From assembly GCF_020735385.1 (NCBI RefSeq), contig NZ_CP085953.1, positions 1,426,001 through 1,490,000 of the forward strand: a DNA stretch of 64,000 nucleotides, read 5' to 3'. The notes under the pieces are model-generated. The model was not told the origin of the DNA and searched no databases. It saw only the letters and a program-made list of their open reading frames with translations. This document shows positions 46,089-52,678 of this stretch, piece by piece. The stretch is from Granulicatella elegans (GTDB taxonomy: Bacteria; Bacillota; Bacilli; Lactobacillales; Aerococcaceae). Position 1 is the first letter of the stretch. Every line of letters starts with the position of its first letter. A program made the translations under genes and the position numbers.

Positions 46089-46132
46089 AATCGTGAAACG
46101 TAACAACACTGTAATATGGTTGTTACGTTTTT
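46089..46132 (+). terminator. Terminator repeat, copy 1
   Basis: AAACGTAACAAC / GTTGTTACGTTT stem (12 bp) with the loop ACTGTAATATG and a T-run. The same sequence, including the 5' flank AATCGTG, recurs at 51485 and, apart from the flank and one loop base, at 48479. Confidence 0.9.
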
Positions 46133-46661: not shown

Positions 46662-46697
46662 ATGATAAGTTAGTTTTTATAGGAAGGAGAGTTTTAT

Positions 46698-47291
46698 ATG
46701 ATTACACTTAGTAATGTTACCATAAAAACACGACAAACCATTATCGAAAATATTGATTTTACTTTTAATAAGGGAAAGGTTTATGGGATTGTTGCTATAA
46801 ATGGGTCTGGAAAAACAACATTGTTTCGTGCTATAAGTCAGTTAATACCAGTAAATAGTGGAAATATAACAACTCTTTCTTCCTTTTTTTATTATGAAAA
46901 TATAGAATGGTTCGATTTGAATTTAAGTGGAATTGACTATTTAAATTATATAAAAAATATCTGGAAATCAACTCAAAGTTTAAATGATGAAATAGATTTC
47001 TGGGAAATGAATGATTTTATTTATCTTCCAATTCGTAAATATTCATTAGGAATGAAACAACGATTATTAATTGCAATGTATTTTATTAGTCAAGCAGAAT
47101 GTTGGCTAATGGATGAAATAACAAATGGATTAGATGAATATTTTCGTACTAAATTTTTTAACAGAATCGATAAATTAAATAGGGAAAATCACCTCATTAT
47201 TTTAACTTCTCACTATAAAGAGGATTTAAGTAAAGTTTGTGATAAGCTTTTAACGATTGAAAATGGTGAAATTAAAGAGGGACAACTATGA
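46698..47291 (+). CDS. ABC transporter ATP-binding protein of the peptide cassette
   Basis: 197 residues, a compact ATPase. Walker A is INGSGKTT, the signature is YSLGMKQRL (degenerate LSGGQ), Walker B CWLMDEITNGLD and the switch His is in LTSHYKED. It lies 36 bases after the peptide gene with AGGAAGGAG upstream, and overlaps the permease by four bases (ATGA). With the permease it probably exports the peptide or gives immunity to it. Confidence 0.88.
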   Translation: MITLSNVTIKTRQTIIENIDFTFNKGKVYGIVAINGSGKTTLFRAISQLIPVNSGNITTLSSFFYYENIEWFDLNLSGIDYLNYIKNIWKSTQSLNDEIDFWEMNDFIYLPIRKYSLGMKQRLLIAMYFISQAECWLMDEITNGLDEYFRTKFFNRIDKLNRENHLIILTSHYKEDLSKVCDKLLTIENGEIKEGQL

Positions 47292-48469
47292 AACAATTAT
47301 TTATATTTTTATTTAAAAAAATTTTAAAAAGTCGTTTAAACATAGCAATTATTATCTTATTAACAATATGTCTTAGTGTTTCTTTTTATTTCAATAGTCA
47401 AACAGCACAACATCTTACCTTAGAAAATCGCTTAGAAACACATATTACAGAGAATGAAAAAGCAATCCAAAAAAATGAAGAAAAATTATCTACACTGAAC
47501 GACACTTTATCTGACGAATATCAGTTTGCAAAAAATAATTTAGAATTACAAAAAGAACTATTGAAACAAAGAAATCAAATTCTTTCGTTATTAGAACAAC
47601 AAAATTGGAAAGAAGCTTATTTCTTACAATGGAAAAACGAAGAAAGAAATTATGAAATTGTTTCGAAACAAGATTACAGTAGTACTGAGTTAAAAGTGGC
47701 TATTAATCTAGAAAAGGAAGTCTATAAATCCTTGTACCCACTTAACATAAAAGCTCATAACTTAGATTTTCCAACTTATGGTATTGATCAAATTGTATGG
47801 GTATCAAGTGCGATAATTCCAACATTATTTTTAATTTCAATTATTTTCTTAATAACTCAGTTGTTTACAGATAGGTATAAAGATGGTTTAGATACATCAA
47901 TATTACTCCCTTTTTCAAGAGTGAAGTATGCGATTTGTACGCTTGGAGTAGGATTGAGTTATGTAAGTTTATTATATATCGGGCTTTGTATTTTTTCTTT
48001 ATTATCAGGTATTTTTAACAATGGTTTTGGCAGGTTGGATTATCCATATCCAATATTAGATGTTGTAAGTCAGAATGTGTCTATTGTTAAAATACAAGAT
48101 ATATTATTCCATAGTTTAATGTTAAATTTTTTAACGTTTATTGTGATTGTTGAAGTTGTTTATTTAGTTAGTTTATTTTTAAAACAAAAAACAGTTTCCT
48201 TATTTATTTCATTAATTCTGATTGTTGGGTTAATTTTTGGAACAAATGCCATTCAACCTCTTCAAAAATATGCACATATTATTCCATTTACATATATACG
48301 TGCAGTTGACATATTATCTGGAAGATTTCCAATAAGGATTCAAAATGTTAATTTGAATGGGGATTTTGGGATAATGATTCTTCCTTTATTCATAGTCATC
48401 TTGTTTATTTTAATTATATTTTTTGAAAAATTTGATACTATGTCTGTAAAGAAATTATGGAACAAATAA
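47288..48469 (+). CDS. ABC-2-like permease of the peptide cassette
   Basis: 393 residues. One helix (about 17-37), a 120-residue extracytoplasmic, coiled-coil-like Glu/Lys/Gln-rich region, then about five further helices (from about 170 to 380). This resembles ABC-2-type permeases of bacteriocin and lantibiotic immunity transporters. No protease or peptidase domain is present. Terminator copy 2 follows the stop by nine bases. Confidence 0.8.
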   Translation: MKQLFIFLFKKILKSRLNIAIIILLTICLSVSFYFNSQTAQHLTLENRLETHITENEKAIQKNEEKLSTLNDTLSDEYQFAKNNLELQKELLKQRNQILSLLEQQNWKEAYFLQWKNEERNYEIVSKQDYSSTELKVAINLEKEVYKSLYPLNIKAHNLDFPTYGIDQIVWVSSAIIPTLFLISIIFLITQLFTDRYKDGLDTSILLPFSRVKYAICTLGVGLSYVSLLYIGLCIFSLLSGIFNNGFGRLDYPYPILDVVSQNVSIVKIQDILFHSLMLNFLTFIVIVEVVYLVSLFLKQKTVSLFISLILIVGLIFGTNAIQPLQKYAHIIPFTYIRAVDILSGRFPIRIQNVNLNGDFGIMILPLFIVILFILIIFFEKFDTMSVKKLWNK

Positions 48470-48478
48470 TTGAGTATA

Positions 48479-48518
48479 AAACGTAACAACACTGTAATAC
48501 GGTTGTTACGTTTTTTTA
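48479..48518 (+). terminator. Terminator repeat, copy 2
   Basis: AAACGTAACAAC / GTTGTTACGTTT with loop ACTGTAATACG and seven or more T residues. The 3' flank (TATATCAAATTTGTATA) is also similar to that of copy 3. Confidence 0.9.
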
Positions 48519-48594
48519 TATCAAATTTGTATATAGGATAAGTTATCGTTTGTTGCACTTGACTTGACAATTCACGGAATATTTTTATTTACTT

Positions 48595-48732: not shown

Positions 48733-50859
48733 ATGAAACATCAATTTAAAGCTTTAGAAGAATTTATGGAAGTTTTTAAACTAAAATATCATCAATTATT
48801 GAATGGAAGAGCAACTGAAGAATCACATCATCATGAAGAACGCTCTGATGAACTGGAAGAACAGCACAGTCATCATCACACTCATGAACACGGGAAACAT
48901 CACCACCATCATGAACATCACCAAGATGCCCATTGCCATCATAATCATGATTCTCATGAACATCATTCTCATACTCATTGTGGAAGTTGTTCTGGTCACC
49001 ATCATCATGAAATTTCTTGGCAACGTTGGGTTCTTGCTATTGGAATGTTTATAGGAGCATTGATTTTAGAAAGAAGTGTAGGATGGATTGCGAATGCTTT
49101 ATTCCTTTTAACGATTGCTTTTATTGGGAAAGAAATCATTGCTGAAGGCATTATGGATACAATACAGGAGACTAAACAATTTAAACAGTTTCGTCCAAAT
49201 GTTCATTTACTGATGACACTTGCTGCTCTTGGAGCAATTTTTATTGGAAAATTTGAAGAAGCAGCAATGCTAATTGTTATTTTTACGATTGCTCATTCAC
49301 TTGAAGAATATGTAGAAAAGAAAAGTCGTAAAGATATGACTCAATTATTACAATTGCAACCAAAAGTTGCATTAAAACAAATGAGTCATGGACATTTTGA
49401 GGAAGTGGATGCATCTTCTTTAGAAATTGGAGATATTATTCAAGTATTGAATGGAAGTCAAATTTCAGCAGATGGAATGATTATTGAAGGAATGTCTTCT
49501 GTTAATCAAGCTTCTGTAACTGGTGAATCTATTCCAGTTGAAAAAGAAGTAGGGAATGAAGTATTTGCTGGAACTTTAAATCTGACACAAACATTGCTGG
49601 TTAAGGTTACTAAAAAACAACAAGATAGTGTACTTGGAAAGATTATTACTTTAGTGCAAGAAGCCGGTCAATCATTAACTCGTACGGGAAGTTTTTTAAA
49701 GAAATGGGAACCAGTCTATGTCACAATCGTATTGGCTTTATTCCCTGTTGTATTAGCGATCGGAATTCTATTTTTAAACTGGGATTTCTTAACAGCTTTT
49801 TATCGTGGAATGGTTTATTTAATTGCCGTATCTCCATGTGCACTAGCCGCTAGTGCAACACCGGTAACAGTAGCTGCTATTTCAACTTTATCTAGAAAAG
49901 GAATCTTTATTAAATCTGGAGCTTCTTTAGAAAAAATGTCTGAAGTTGAAGCGATTGCTTTTGATAAAACTGGTACACTTACAAATGGAACACCGAAAGT
50001 TGTGTCCAAAGTAATGGATAAAGATCGTGAATTTGAATTATATTCCATTCTTGTATCGATGGAGAGAAAAGTAAATCATCCATTAGCCTTTGCAATCGTA
50101 GAATCTGGATTAGCTTATCCTACTTATTCATTATCTGTTATACCAAAAGTAGGAATTGGATTAGAAGCAACTTATAGAAATCGCACGTATCGTGTTGGAA
50201 AACCTTCTAGTTTCGCTACATTAGGAAAATATGCAGAAATTGTTGAACAGTGGATGAATGAAGGGAAAACCGTTGTAGTTTTGAGTGAAGACCATTTAGT
50301 AGTTGGAGCAGTAGCGCTATTAGATACTCCAAAAGAAAAAGCAAAACAAGTGATTGATTATTTCAAACAAGAAAATATTCAAACGATGCTTTTAACGGGA
50401 GATTCTATTCAAACGGCTGAGGCAATTGCTAACGAATTAGAAGTGGATGAAGTTAGAGCCAATGTATTACCAGAAGAAAAAGCAAATACTCTAAAAGAGT
50501 GGACCATGAAATATCCGACAATTGCAATGGTAGGAGATGGTATTAATGATGCACCAGCATTAGTGAGTGCAGAAGTTGGGATTGCAATGGGAAAAGGAAC
50601 TGATGTTGCAATGGAATCAAGTGATATTGTATTAATGACTAGTCAATTAGATTCTTTAAAAACATTACATAAAGTTTCAAAATTAATGATGACCGTTACA
50701 AAGCAAAACTTACTTTTTTCACTATTTATTGTAATTTTATTAGTGATTTTAAATTTTCTAGGATGGAGTGATCTAACTCTTGGAGTCATTCTTCACGAAG
50801 GAAGTACAGTAGTAGTGCTATTACATGCATTAAGGTTAATTTTTACGCCAATTGAATAA
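48733..50859 (+). CDS. P1B-4-type heavy-metal efflux ATPase with His-rich N-terminus
   Basis: 708 residues. Residues about 32-93 hold 29 His plus a CGSC, a likely metal-binding tail in place of an HMA domain. The P-type core has TGES (actuator), the SPC motif in VSPCALAASATP (helix 6), phosphorylation motif DKTGTLT, HP in NHPLAFAI, GDGINDAP, and HEGSTVVVLLHALRL in the last helices. SPC plus HEGxT define group P1B-4, which exports Fe2+, Co2+ or Zn2+ (PfeT/ZosA, CtpD). The exact metal cannot be read from sequence. GAAAGGGAG precedes the ATG. Confidence 0.88.
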   Translation: MKHQFKALEEFMEVFKLKYHQLLNGRATEESHHHEERSDELEEQHSHHHTHEHGKHHHHHEHHQDAHCHHNHDSHEHHSHTHCGSCSGHHHHEISWQRWVLAIGMFIGALILERSVGWIANALFLLTIAFIGKEIIAEGIMDTIQETKQFKQFRPNVHLLMTLAALGAIFIGKFEEAAMLIVIFTIAHSLEEYVEKKSRKDMTQLLQLQPKVALKQMSHGHFEEVDASSLEIGDIIQVLNGSQISADGMIIEGMSSVNQASVTGESIPVEKEVGNEVFAGTLNLTQTLLVKVTKKQQDSVLGKIITLVQEAGQSLTRTGSFLKKWEPVYVTIVLALFPVVLAIGILFLNWDFLTAFYRGMVYLIAVSPCALAASATPVTVAAISTLSRKGIFIKSGASLEKMSEVEAIAFDKTGTLTNGTPKVVSKVMDKDREFELYSILVSMERKVNHPLAFAIVESGLAYPTYSLSVIPKVGIGLEATYRNRTYRVGKPSSFATLGKYAEIVEQWMNEGKTVVVLSEDHLVVGAVALLDTPKEKAKQVIDYFKQENIQTMLLTGDSIQTAEAIANELEVDEVRANVLPEEKANTLKEWTMKYPTIAMVGDGINDAPALVSAEVGIAMGKGTDVAMESSDIVLMTSQLDSLKTLHKVSKLMMTVTKQNLLFSLFIVILLVILNFLGWSDLTLGVILHEGSTVVVLLHALRLIFTPIE

Positions 50860-50869
50860 TCATGAAAAT

Positions 50870-50884
50870 GTTTGATATTCAAAC
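50870..50884 (+). promoter_or_regulatory. FabT-type operator
   Basis: GTTTGATATTCAAAC is a perfect palindrome around a central base and fits the FabT box TTTGA-nnn-TCAAA known from streptococcal fab promoters. It sits 16 bases before the fabT remnant, as expected for autoregulation. Confidence 0.7.
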
Positions 50885-50900
50885 TAATTAGTAGAAAGGA

Positions 50901-51486
50901 ATGGAAACAACTCTAGAGAAAATTAATGAGTATTTGGTAGACGTCCTTAATCAAATGCTTGATATTGAAGAATCTTCATTGGCGCAAAGTCAATTTAAAG
51001 ATTTATCCATTAAAGAAATGCATGCCATTGAAGCAATTGGTATGTACCATGAACATACAACAACAGAAGTTGCCAATACATTAAATGTAACGGTTGGGAC
51101 GCTAACAGTAGCAGTTAATGTACTAGTGAAGAAAGGATATGTTGTACGCTTAAAAGAGATTTCAGTTACAGTTATTGGAATGCAAAAAGGTCATACGTTA
51201 CAAGAAAATATCGAGCGAAATTTTGGGCAAGTTCATCCAGAAGGATTTGCTTCGATTTTGTGGAAAGATAGTAAAAAAGCTGAACAAGCAAGTGAATTAA
51301 TGAAGTTTACAAGTAAGAAATTAATGAAAGAAGGAATTGTCGATAAAATTATTTTAGAGAAAAACCGTTCGTTAAAAAATAGCGACAGAACTTCAAACTA
51401 CTTTATTGGTATCTTTAAAAGAATGGCGTACCAAATCAAAAGAGGAACTAGTAAGCCAACGCTTAGAAAAATTTAGAAAATACTAA
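50901..51486 (+). pseudogene. fabT'-accA' fusion scar, relic of the fatty-acid-synthesis cluster
   Basis: The 191-residue frame from ATG 50901 is a chimera. Residues 1-84 are the MarR-type DNA-binding half of FabT (KINEYLV, FKDLSIKEMHAIEAIGM, VTVGTLTVAVNVLVKKGYV). From residue about 87 it is AccA: VTVIGMQKGHTLQENIERNF then HPEG, jumping directly to FASILWKDSKKAEQASELMK, which in intact AccA lies over 100 residues later after a second PEG. After residue about 155 the frame shifts near an A6 tract; the +1 frame gives the AccA tail (EELVSQRLEKFRKY) and stops at 51486. So there are two deletions and a frameshift. AAAGGA abuts the ATG, a poor start. Confidence 0.85.
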
Positions 51487-51530
51487 TCGTGAAACGTAAC
51501 AACACTGTAATATGGTTGTTACGTTTTTTT
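51485..51530 (+). terminator. Terminator repeat, copy 3
   Basis: Same stem and loop as copy 1 and the same AATCGTG flank, directly after the accA remnant stop, so it was probably the original terminator of the fab cluster. Confidence 0.9.
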
Positions 51531-51577
51531 TATATAGAATTTGTATAATGAAGAATACTATGAGAAAAGTGTGGTGA

Positions 51578-52678
51578 ATGGATCTGGATAAGCGATTAAG
51601 AAAAAATATTGTCATTACGGGAGTAGTAGGTCTATTATTGACACATTCTCCTATATCCATACATGCACAAGAAATCTCTCAAGAATCCATTCTTCAATTA
51701 GAGCAAGAGCTTTCTCAAAAATTAAATTTTGCTAATGAGAAATATCGTCAAGTTGCAACATTAAAGAACGATTTAAAGGAGTTAGCATCCAATCAAGCGT
51801 TATTAGAACAACAAATTAATCAACAACAAGAAAAATTAGTGGAGAAAGAATCAGTTGTGAAACAACGTTTATTAGCATTGCAGTCAAGTGGTATTGTTTA
51901 TCAACGGTTTATTCAACTGGTTCAGGCAGCGAGTATTTCTGATTTTTTCCATCGCTTTTTTACGATTCAAGAGTTATTCAAAGCAGATATTTTAACAATA
52001 CGAAACTATAAACAAGAAGTTCATTCATTAGTCATTTCAAAACAAGAATTAAAAGAGAATGAAGATAGTTTATTAAAAAAACAGCAAGATTTACAAACAG
52101 AATCTACTTTATATGAAGAAAGTATTCAAGTTTTAAAACAAAATCTTTCTACTAATAAAGAAGCATTGTTAGCAATTCGTGAAAAAGTAAAACAGTCGAG
52201 TGAAAATGAAGAACCAACCACTCATCACTCTCCTAGTGAAAGTAAAAAAGAAGAAAAGGTTAAAGAGTCTTCTATTGAAAATTCTAAAGAAACCACTTCA
52301 GCAACAGGTAAGAAATCTCTTGAAAATCAACAGCTAAACCAATCTTCTTCAAAGAGTAAAACAGTAACTAGTGAAACAAATTCTAGTTCTGTTGGAAAAG
52401 AATTTGTTGCAGAAGCAACAGCCTATTCTTATAAACAACCTGGGCTAAATAATTATACAGCAATGGGCATTGATTTAAGACAAAATCCTAATGTCATTGC
52501 AGTAGATCCCACTCAAATTCCATTAGGAACTTTAGTGGAAGTTCCAGGGTATGGAATTGCGATTGCTGGAGATACAGGTGCAGATATTAAAGGAAATCGA
52601 ATTGATTTACATTATCCTGAAGTACAGCAAGCAATGGATTTTGGAAGAAAAAAGATTACGATAAAAGTGATGAATTAA
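51578..52678 (+). CDS. Secreted coiled-coil protein with C-terminal 3D domain
   Basis: 366 residues. Signal peptide (about 1-31, ending IHAQE), a long coiled coil (about 32-205), a Ser/Glu/Lys/Thr-rich linker (about 210-275) and a C-terminal 3D domain (about 280-366) with ATAYSY, AVDPTQIPLGT and the Asp-rich DTGADIKGNRIDL. Such RlpA/MltA-like 3D domains occur in wall-acting enzymes (for example YocH-type) in Firmicutes. It resembles PcsB/Sps-like wall-remodelling proteins in layout. The ribosome site is weak. A TATAAT at 51544-51549, just beyond terminator copy 3, may be its -10 box. Confidence 0.82.
   Translation: MDLDKRLRKNIVITGVVGLLLTHSPISIHAQEISQESILQLEQELSQKLNFANEKYRQVATLKNDLKELASNQALLEQQINQQQEKLVEKESVVKQRLLALQSSGIVYQRFIQLVQAASISDFFHRFFTIQELFKADILTIRNYKQEVHSLVISKQELKENEDSLLKKQQDLQTESTLYEESIQVLKQNLSTNKEALLAIREKVKQSSENEEPTTHHSPSESKKEEKVKESSIENSKETTSATGKKSLENQQLNQSSSKSKTVTSETNSSSVGKEFVAEATAYSYKQPGLNNYTAMGIDLRQNPNVIAVDPTQIPLGTLVEVPGYGIAIAGDTGADIKGNRIDLHYPEVQQAMDFGRKKITIKVMN

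Follow-up and report, generated by a model that had tools for sequence, protein, structure and literature searches.

Very Probable Deletion Scar of the FabT-Regulated FASII Operon in a Granulicatella Genome

A 64,000-nucleotide stretch of a Granulicatella genome (the window) contains an open reading frame that starts as FabT and continues as AccA. In Enterococcus faecalis, these two proteins are described as encoded by the first and last genes of a twelve-gene operon (PMC13046290). Has the operon between them been lost, does the bacterium retain FASII elsewhere, and could the fused frame still serve as a regulator? We consider it very probable that the locus is a decaying deletion scar of the FASII operon, in a bacterium that has kept the uptake route and makes its membranes from exogenous fatty acids.

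RESULTS

A single open frame joins the start of fabT to parts of accA

The window spans positions 1,426,001 to 1,490,000 of the single contig (1,890,620 bases) of a 99.5% complete Granulicatella genome, G000. The best relative of the fusion locus was that of G. elegans ATCC 700633 (genome G006, fab locus L002), with 93% over residues 1 to 86. In nucleotide alignments the window and L002 were 91.9% identical over 7,446 columns and 92.3% identical over 1,931 columns, and since the shared DNA is thus ~92% identical, the genome of the window is near G. elegans ATCC 700633 but distinct from it. The locus comprises the following features, in window coordinates.

48733 to 50859, plus strand: P-type (E1-E2) ATPase gene (Pfam E1-E2_ATPase, E 1.5e-43), syntenic with L002 7597-9864; the upstream neighbor of fabT in G. 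elegans too
50860 to 50900, plus strand: collapsed fab promoter region, 41 nt long (G. elegans: 136 nt) and without the -35, the -10 and two of the three operator-like sites
50871 to 50883, unstranded: sole remaining FabT-type palindrome, TTTGATATTCAAA, from comparison with relatives
50901 to 51157, plus strand: fabT remnant (TransRegFabT), residues 1 to about 86 of 154; 93.2% nucleotide identity to L002 9965-10257
51150 to 51157, unstranded: junction 1, microhomology TTAAAAGA (8 bp), joining L002 10250 to 18959; 8,709 bp missing
51158 to 51244, plus strand: accA remnant, 5' part; 89.8% nucleotide identity to L002 18956-19053
51236 to 51244, unstranded: junction 2, microhomology TCCAGAAGG (9 bp); 279 bp missing inside accA
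51245 to 51481, plus strand: accA remnant, 3' part, with a 2-nt frameshift near 51373; 91.9% nucleotide identity to L002 19324-19571; stop of the frame at 51476
51482 to 51528, plus strand: rearrangement breakpoint and terminator-like hairpin, matching G006 near 824.8 kb; the fold of 51491-51527 has -15.6 kcal/mol, z -4.38

The frame at 50901-51476 encodes 191 amino acids, FabT residues 1 to about 86 followed by AccA. The initial annotation had read the locus as the start of FabT, AccA in the same frame and the AccA tail in a shifted frame; this is what we see, and each half matches its own profile. Residues 9 to 86 match the NCBIfam model TransRegFabT with E 2.1e-29 (profile positions 1 to 78 of 138; 102.6 bits versus a cut-off of 200), and the remainder matches the AccA models PRK12319.1 (E 4.7e-23) and TIGR00513 (E 1.2e-17) in two stretches, as well as Pfam ACCA (E 1.3e-20). 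The AccA portion thus consists of two fragments (82.1 bits versus a cut-off of 406), and a full-length carboxyltransferase alpha chain is absent. Alignment to G. elegans covered fabT over 50866-51157, the 5' part of accA over 51147-51244 and its 3' part over 51236-51481. When the fusion protein was used as a query against 37 genomes, 28 had a match, and only the genome of the window had both parts in one match.

Two deletions at short repeats separate the locus from an intact operon

The fabT...accA cluster order given initially is present intact at the syntenic site of the nearest relative. In L002, tgt, yajC, a small gene and the same P-type ATPase gene that precedes fabT in the window are followed by fabT-fabH-acp-fabK-fabD-fabG-fabF-accB-fabZ-accC-accD-accA (the gene names are our own assignments from translations). 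The other Granulicatella genomes compared were G001, G003, G004 and G005, with the additional loci L003, L004 and L005, of which L004 repeats G001 and L005 repeats G005.

Nucleotide identity to L002 flanks each junction, bearing out the proposal that a deletion of roughly ten genes had fused fabT to accA. The 8,709 bp lost relative to L002 comprise the end of fabT, ten whole genes (fabH, acp, fabK, fabD, fabG, fabF, accB, fabZ, accC and accD) and the start of accA. The 279-bp deletion inside accA is additional to what had been reported earlier, and in the alignment to L002 the frameshift appears as a 2-nt gap near 51373. For random breakpoints in the same genes, the chance of such shared lengths is 5e-4 for 8 bp and 3e-4 for 9 bp; both junctions therefore look like deletions at short direct repeats.

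The promoter is gone and one operator-like palindrome remains

Four relatives (L002, G001, G004 and G005) have a promoter of the form TTGACA-17/18-TATANT, the -35 of which lies within one TTTGA-N3-TCAAA site, and two further such sites lie at the -10 and just downstream of it. L003 has the same three sites, and a fourth is found farther upstream in G001 and G004. A promoter with overlapping operator sites, the arrangement taken to mark FabT repression, is absent from the window: our promoter scan of 50700-51600 listed no forward promoter-like site, while L002 gives an 11-of-12 match. The palindrome initially described as intact is indeed present, but it is the lone survivor of at least three ancestral sites and its promoter has been lost. 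Of the sites ahead of the intact G. elegans fabT, the one closest to the start codon has the identical sequence and likewise lies at -30. The bare pattern TTTGANNNTCAAA has 0.89 chance occurrences expected per window; because the pattern by itself is not rarer than chance, the meaning of the palindrome rests on its position and its identity with relatives.

Two further differences were found around the former promoter. The AGGAG ahead of the start codon in L002 is AGTAG in the window, and the hairpin with a T run that follows the ATPase gene in L002 (9868-9920; -16.1 kcal/mol, z -3.86), which folding detects and a simple hairpin scan omits, is absent from the window. Since the promoter, two sites and this hairpin are gone, the scar is probably silent, or else transcribed by read-through from the ATPase gene.

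Genome-wide counts of the exact palindrome pattern are 9 for G000, 17 for G006, 18 for G004 and nine for G003. Sites outside the fab locus fall within open reading frames in 8 of 8 cases in G000, 13 of 13 in G006 and 10 of 14 in G004, and the idea of a surviving FabT regulon in G000 was dropped in view of the first of these counts. In G004, where FASII is intact, one of the four sites outside open reading frames (G004:C1:1373804) precedes a DegV/FakB-family gene by ~50 bp, and FabT control of uptake is possible there.

The fused frame is most likely a pseudogene

All four intact Granulicatella FabT rows compared have the wing motif DRRIV-LGLT. In the fusion, this wing and everything C-terminal to it (the dimer and ligand helices) are replaced by AccA sequence, so that the complete winged helix initially ascribed to the fused frame does not hold. 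With the wing and the C-terminal helices missing, the fusion is unlikely to be a working repressor. Its predicted structure is poor (mean pLDDT 42.5, from a five-row alignment) and supports neither a functional nor a dead reading.

We compared codon changes with G. elegans, polarizing them by three outgroups. In the accA remnant (71 codons), six nonsynonymous changes and one synonymous change fell on the branch of the window, versus none and six on the G. elegans branch (p 0.0047). For a further six differences (one nonsynonymous, five synonymous) polarization was not possible; the p value becomes 0.0017 if all are assigned to G. elegans, 0.044 if all are assigned to the window's own branch and 0.17 under the least favorable split. 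The fabT remnant (83 codons) has no excess (two nonsynonymous and four synonymous versus one and four, p 1.0; two and four unassigned), and the 30-codon tail past the frameshift has no changes on its own branch versus one of each kind on that of G. elegans (four nonsynonymous and one synonymous unassigned). The excess in accA is small and varies with how those six are assigned; it suggests relaxed constraint on that remnant.

The dN/dS values to G. elegans are 0.10 for the fabT piece, 0.055 for the 5' part of accA and 0.23 for its 3' part, and ten flanking genes range from 0.012 to 0.172. As these values are still low, most of the divergence seems to predate the loss of FASII, and compared with the split from G. 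elegans the loss would be recent. Judged from the sequence, the 191-codon frame is most likely incidental, and the locus a pseudogene.

The remainder of the genome lacks FASII condensing enzymes and encodes the uptake route

Profiles for the FabH C-terminal domain and for ketoacyl synthases gave only weak partial matches across the whole of G000 (21.8 and 22.5 bits), both to one open reading frame, an acetyl-CoA acetyltransferase (thiolase) by NCBIfam and Pfam. A 2,754-residue concatenated query running from FabH to AccD picked up the complete cluster in the genome it was taken from, G006, and also in G004, which served as an independent positive control; it revealed no cluster in G000. Its only four matches there were a 1,148-residue pyruvate carboxylase (PYC_OADA domain), two SDR proteins (34% and 26% identity) and another ACP. 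By this one close-homology query, FabD, FabK, FabZ, AccB, AccD and a stand-alone AccC are absent from G000. A distant FabG may be among the two SDR proteins; as Lactobacillus johnsonii is reported to retain FabG (PMC11625735), its presence does not decide membership among FASII-less bacteria. Since the scar was the sole match of the fusion query in G000 at E values up to 0.001, there appears to be no other AccA. The earlier suggestion that the whole cluster had been lost, and not merely a second copy of it, is thus upheld by the profile and query searches of this one-contig genome.

In the Firmicutes pathway for exogenous fatty acids, FakAB produces acyl-phosphate, which PlsY uses directly, and PlsX transfers the acyl group to ACP for the second acylation. 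G000 encodes FakA, three DegV/FakB-family proteins, PlsX, PlsY and ACP. Its FakA matches the NCBIfam FakA model with E 4e-216, under the equivalog cut-off, and passes the YloV cut-off; all three DegV proteins pass TIGR00762 and none reaches the FakB1 equivalog cut-off. The ACP scores above several cut-offs and is encoded ~103 kb from plsX, and a second, weaker ACP-like protein is found at 909,423. From the loss of FASII together with the kept uptake genes, and by analogy with the FASII-less lactobacilli discussed below, the strain should be a fatty acid auxotroph.

We also considered pyruvate carboxylase as a mark of FASII-less Granulicatella. This idea was dropped, as PYC/OADA matches turned up in 45 of 60 relatives and the FASII-bearing G005 has a full-length copy. 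G006 (90% complete) has no pyc match and likewise no plsX or fakA match, both of which lie within 0.1 Mb of pyc in G000; together with the copy in G005 and the count among relatives, this indicates an assembly gap.

An inversion ends next to the accA remnant

The terminator that had been placed after the AccA tail exists as a hairpin at 51491-51527, but it is not accA's own, for it matches the hairpin upstream of the G. elegans 3D-domain gene. The simple hairpin scan omitted it and gave 51225-51252, inside the accA remnant. In G001 and G004, pepP follows accA, and in G. elegans a small two-gene unit intervenes (in G005, accA and pepP are on separate contigs). In G000, pepP is on the opposite strand at a distance of ~173 kb, and the gene that comes after the scar is the 3D-domain gene, which in G. 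elegans is ~173 kb from accA. These arrangements make an inversion of 173 kb between G000 and G. elegans probable, with one breakpoint no more than about 10 bp from the accA stop. The ends of the inversion fall at window positions 51481-51490 and near 1,650.8 kb of G000 (L078 5807-5933); ~6.6 kb present in G. elegans at the latter end is missing there in G000. The two-gene unit between accA and pepP of G. elegans (L051 12982-13775), at the site of the inversion end of G000, presumably resembles HicA/HicB, and its larger protein had no Pfam match.

Three nearly identical 27-bp hairpins (GTAACAAC...GTTGTTAC) lie within a 5.4-kb part of the window, at 46100, 48483 and 51496. Those at 46.1 and 51.5 kb have a longer identical flank in common; at the location of the former, G. 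elegans has nothing corresponding to the region. Positions 46694-48533, which lie between the P-type ATPase gene and the yajC side, carry an ABC-transporter ATPase gene followed by a membrane-protein gene (no Pfam match). This pair is absent there in G. elegans and is 74.6% identical to a pair that G. elegans carries beside its 3D-domain gene (L079); the neighboring DNA is mostly 90 to 95% identical to G. elegans, and the pair is perhaps a paralogue or acquired.

FASII loss seems recurrent among relatives

Thirteen of 60 genomes, that of the window included, have no full-length FabF-type match to the ketoacyl-synthase profile (partial at E 3e-8 or worse, or none). Within the family the figure is 9 of 36 genomes, and within the genus 2 of 7, some of them drafts. 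Apart from the two Granulicatella, the eleven genomes concerned (G007, G011, G013, G020, G022, G034, G035, G039, G043, G047 and G050) belong to nine other genera of the order, again with some drafts, and FASII loss seems recurrent. For the other Granulicatella, G003, the genome is a draft, which makes the loss less certain there. Its contig with pepP and tgt has no similar scar and no fab remnant beyond a distant SDR. PepP of G000 is 98% identical to that of G. elegans and 74% to that of G003. Because G000 groups with the FASII-bearing G. elegans and G003 lacks a matching scar, the two losses look independent.

DISCUSSION

The events at this locus can be pictured as follows. The common ancestor with G. 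elegans would have had a FabT-regulated twelve-gene operon behind the P-type ATPase gene. One deletion at a short repeat would have started near codon 84 of fabT and extended to near codon 51 of accA, taking out 8.7 kb, and a further such deletion would have taken 279 bp more of accA. Also lost would have been the promoter, along with two FabT-type sites out of three, and a 2-nt gap would have shifted the frame, with no order implied among these events. Relaxed selection would be the cause of the decay. Membranes would then be built from exogenous fatty acids, by way of FakAB, acyl-phosphate and PlsY, with PlsX supplying ACP for the second acylation.

Three other explanations were weighed against this one. 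That the fused frame yields a residual DNA-binding protein, still functional at its own operator, might be argued from the retained helix-turn-helix region, the frame open to 191 codons, the one palindrome still ahead of it and the fabT part free of visible relaxation. However, its wing and C-terminal part have been replaced by AccA, the promoter scan lists no forward site, its would-be fab targets are gone and the eight other exact sites in G000 all lie inside open reading frames, which makes this very improbable. Equally hard to credit is a second or acquired FASII set, with the scar as a duplicate relic: some relatives (G037, G041 and G059) do have two full-length FabF-type genes, yet the FabF and FabH profiles and the concatenated query found none in the one-contig genome.

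For a deletion that exists only in the assembly, or that arose in culture on rich laboratory medium, it speaks that the scar is known from one genome only. Two separate deletions, a frameshift and promoter loss at one locus are nevertheless unlike a single misjoin, and the excess of amino acid changes in accA, if real, requires evolutionary time; we regard such an artifact as highly unlikely. The decaying operon scar in a bacterium living on exogenous fatty acids is therefore our strongly preferred reading. A bolder view is that FASII loss is ongoing and repeated in Granulicatella and that this lineage was caught midway, the operon having been shut by host fatty acids via FabT, with promoter collapse first and microhomology deletions afterwards. 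We think this rather doubtful; if true, the locus would be a stepwise record of a bacterium becoming dependent on outside lipids.

Bacteria able to live on outside fatty acids escape FASII drugs. A genus with one operon-bearing species and a close relative devoid of the operon would be a natural experiment, for which the predictions are a growth requirement, readable decay and indifference to FASII inhibitors. FASII enzymes are described as being pursued as antibiotic targets (PMC5059476).

Known systems frame the locus from several sides. Full-length G. elegans FabT matches PDB 6jbx ("Fatty acid biosynthesis transcriptional regulator"), which we take to be FabT from Streptococcus pneumoniae, over residues 6 to 145 (E 2.2e-45), whereas the fusion retains only about the first 86 residues. 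The intact Granulicatella relatives share the twelve genes fabT...accA and the TTTGA-N3-TCAAA promoter sites with the FabT-regulated FASII operon outlined for Enterococcus, Streptococcus and Lactococcus (PMC13046290), in contrast to the window, where the promoter, ten of the genes and all but one of the three sites are missing. Among the titles and abstract openings of open-licence papers, we found no description of FASII loss in Granulicatella; in lactobacilli it is already known. L. johnsonii is summarized as lacking nearly all FASII genes, having ACP beside plsX and requiring fatty acids (PMC6509188 and PMC11625735), and vaginal lactobacilli as having been shown to be fatty acid auxotrophs (PMC11429459). 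Like them, G000 has lost its FASII genes and kept a FakAB-PlsX type route and ACP. Unlike in L. johnsonii, where acp is reported beside plsX, the better ACP of G000 is encoded far from that gene, and unlike the FASII-less lactobacilli as described, G000 has a scar that can still be read and a close relative with the operon intact. FASII loss is of a kind already known in Lactobacillales, and G000 is a further, unusually legible case of it.
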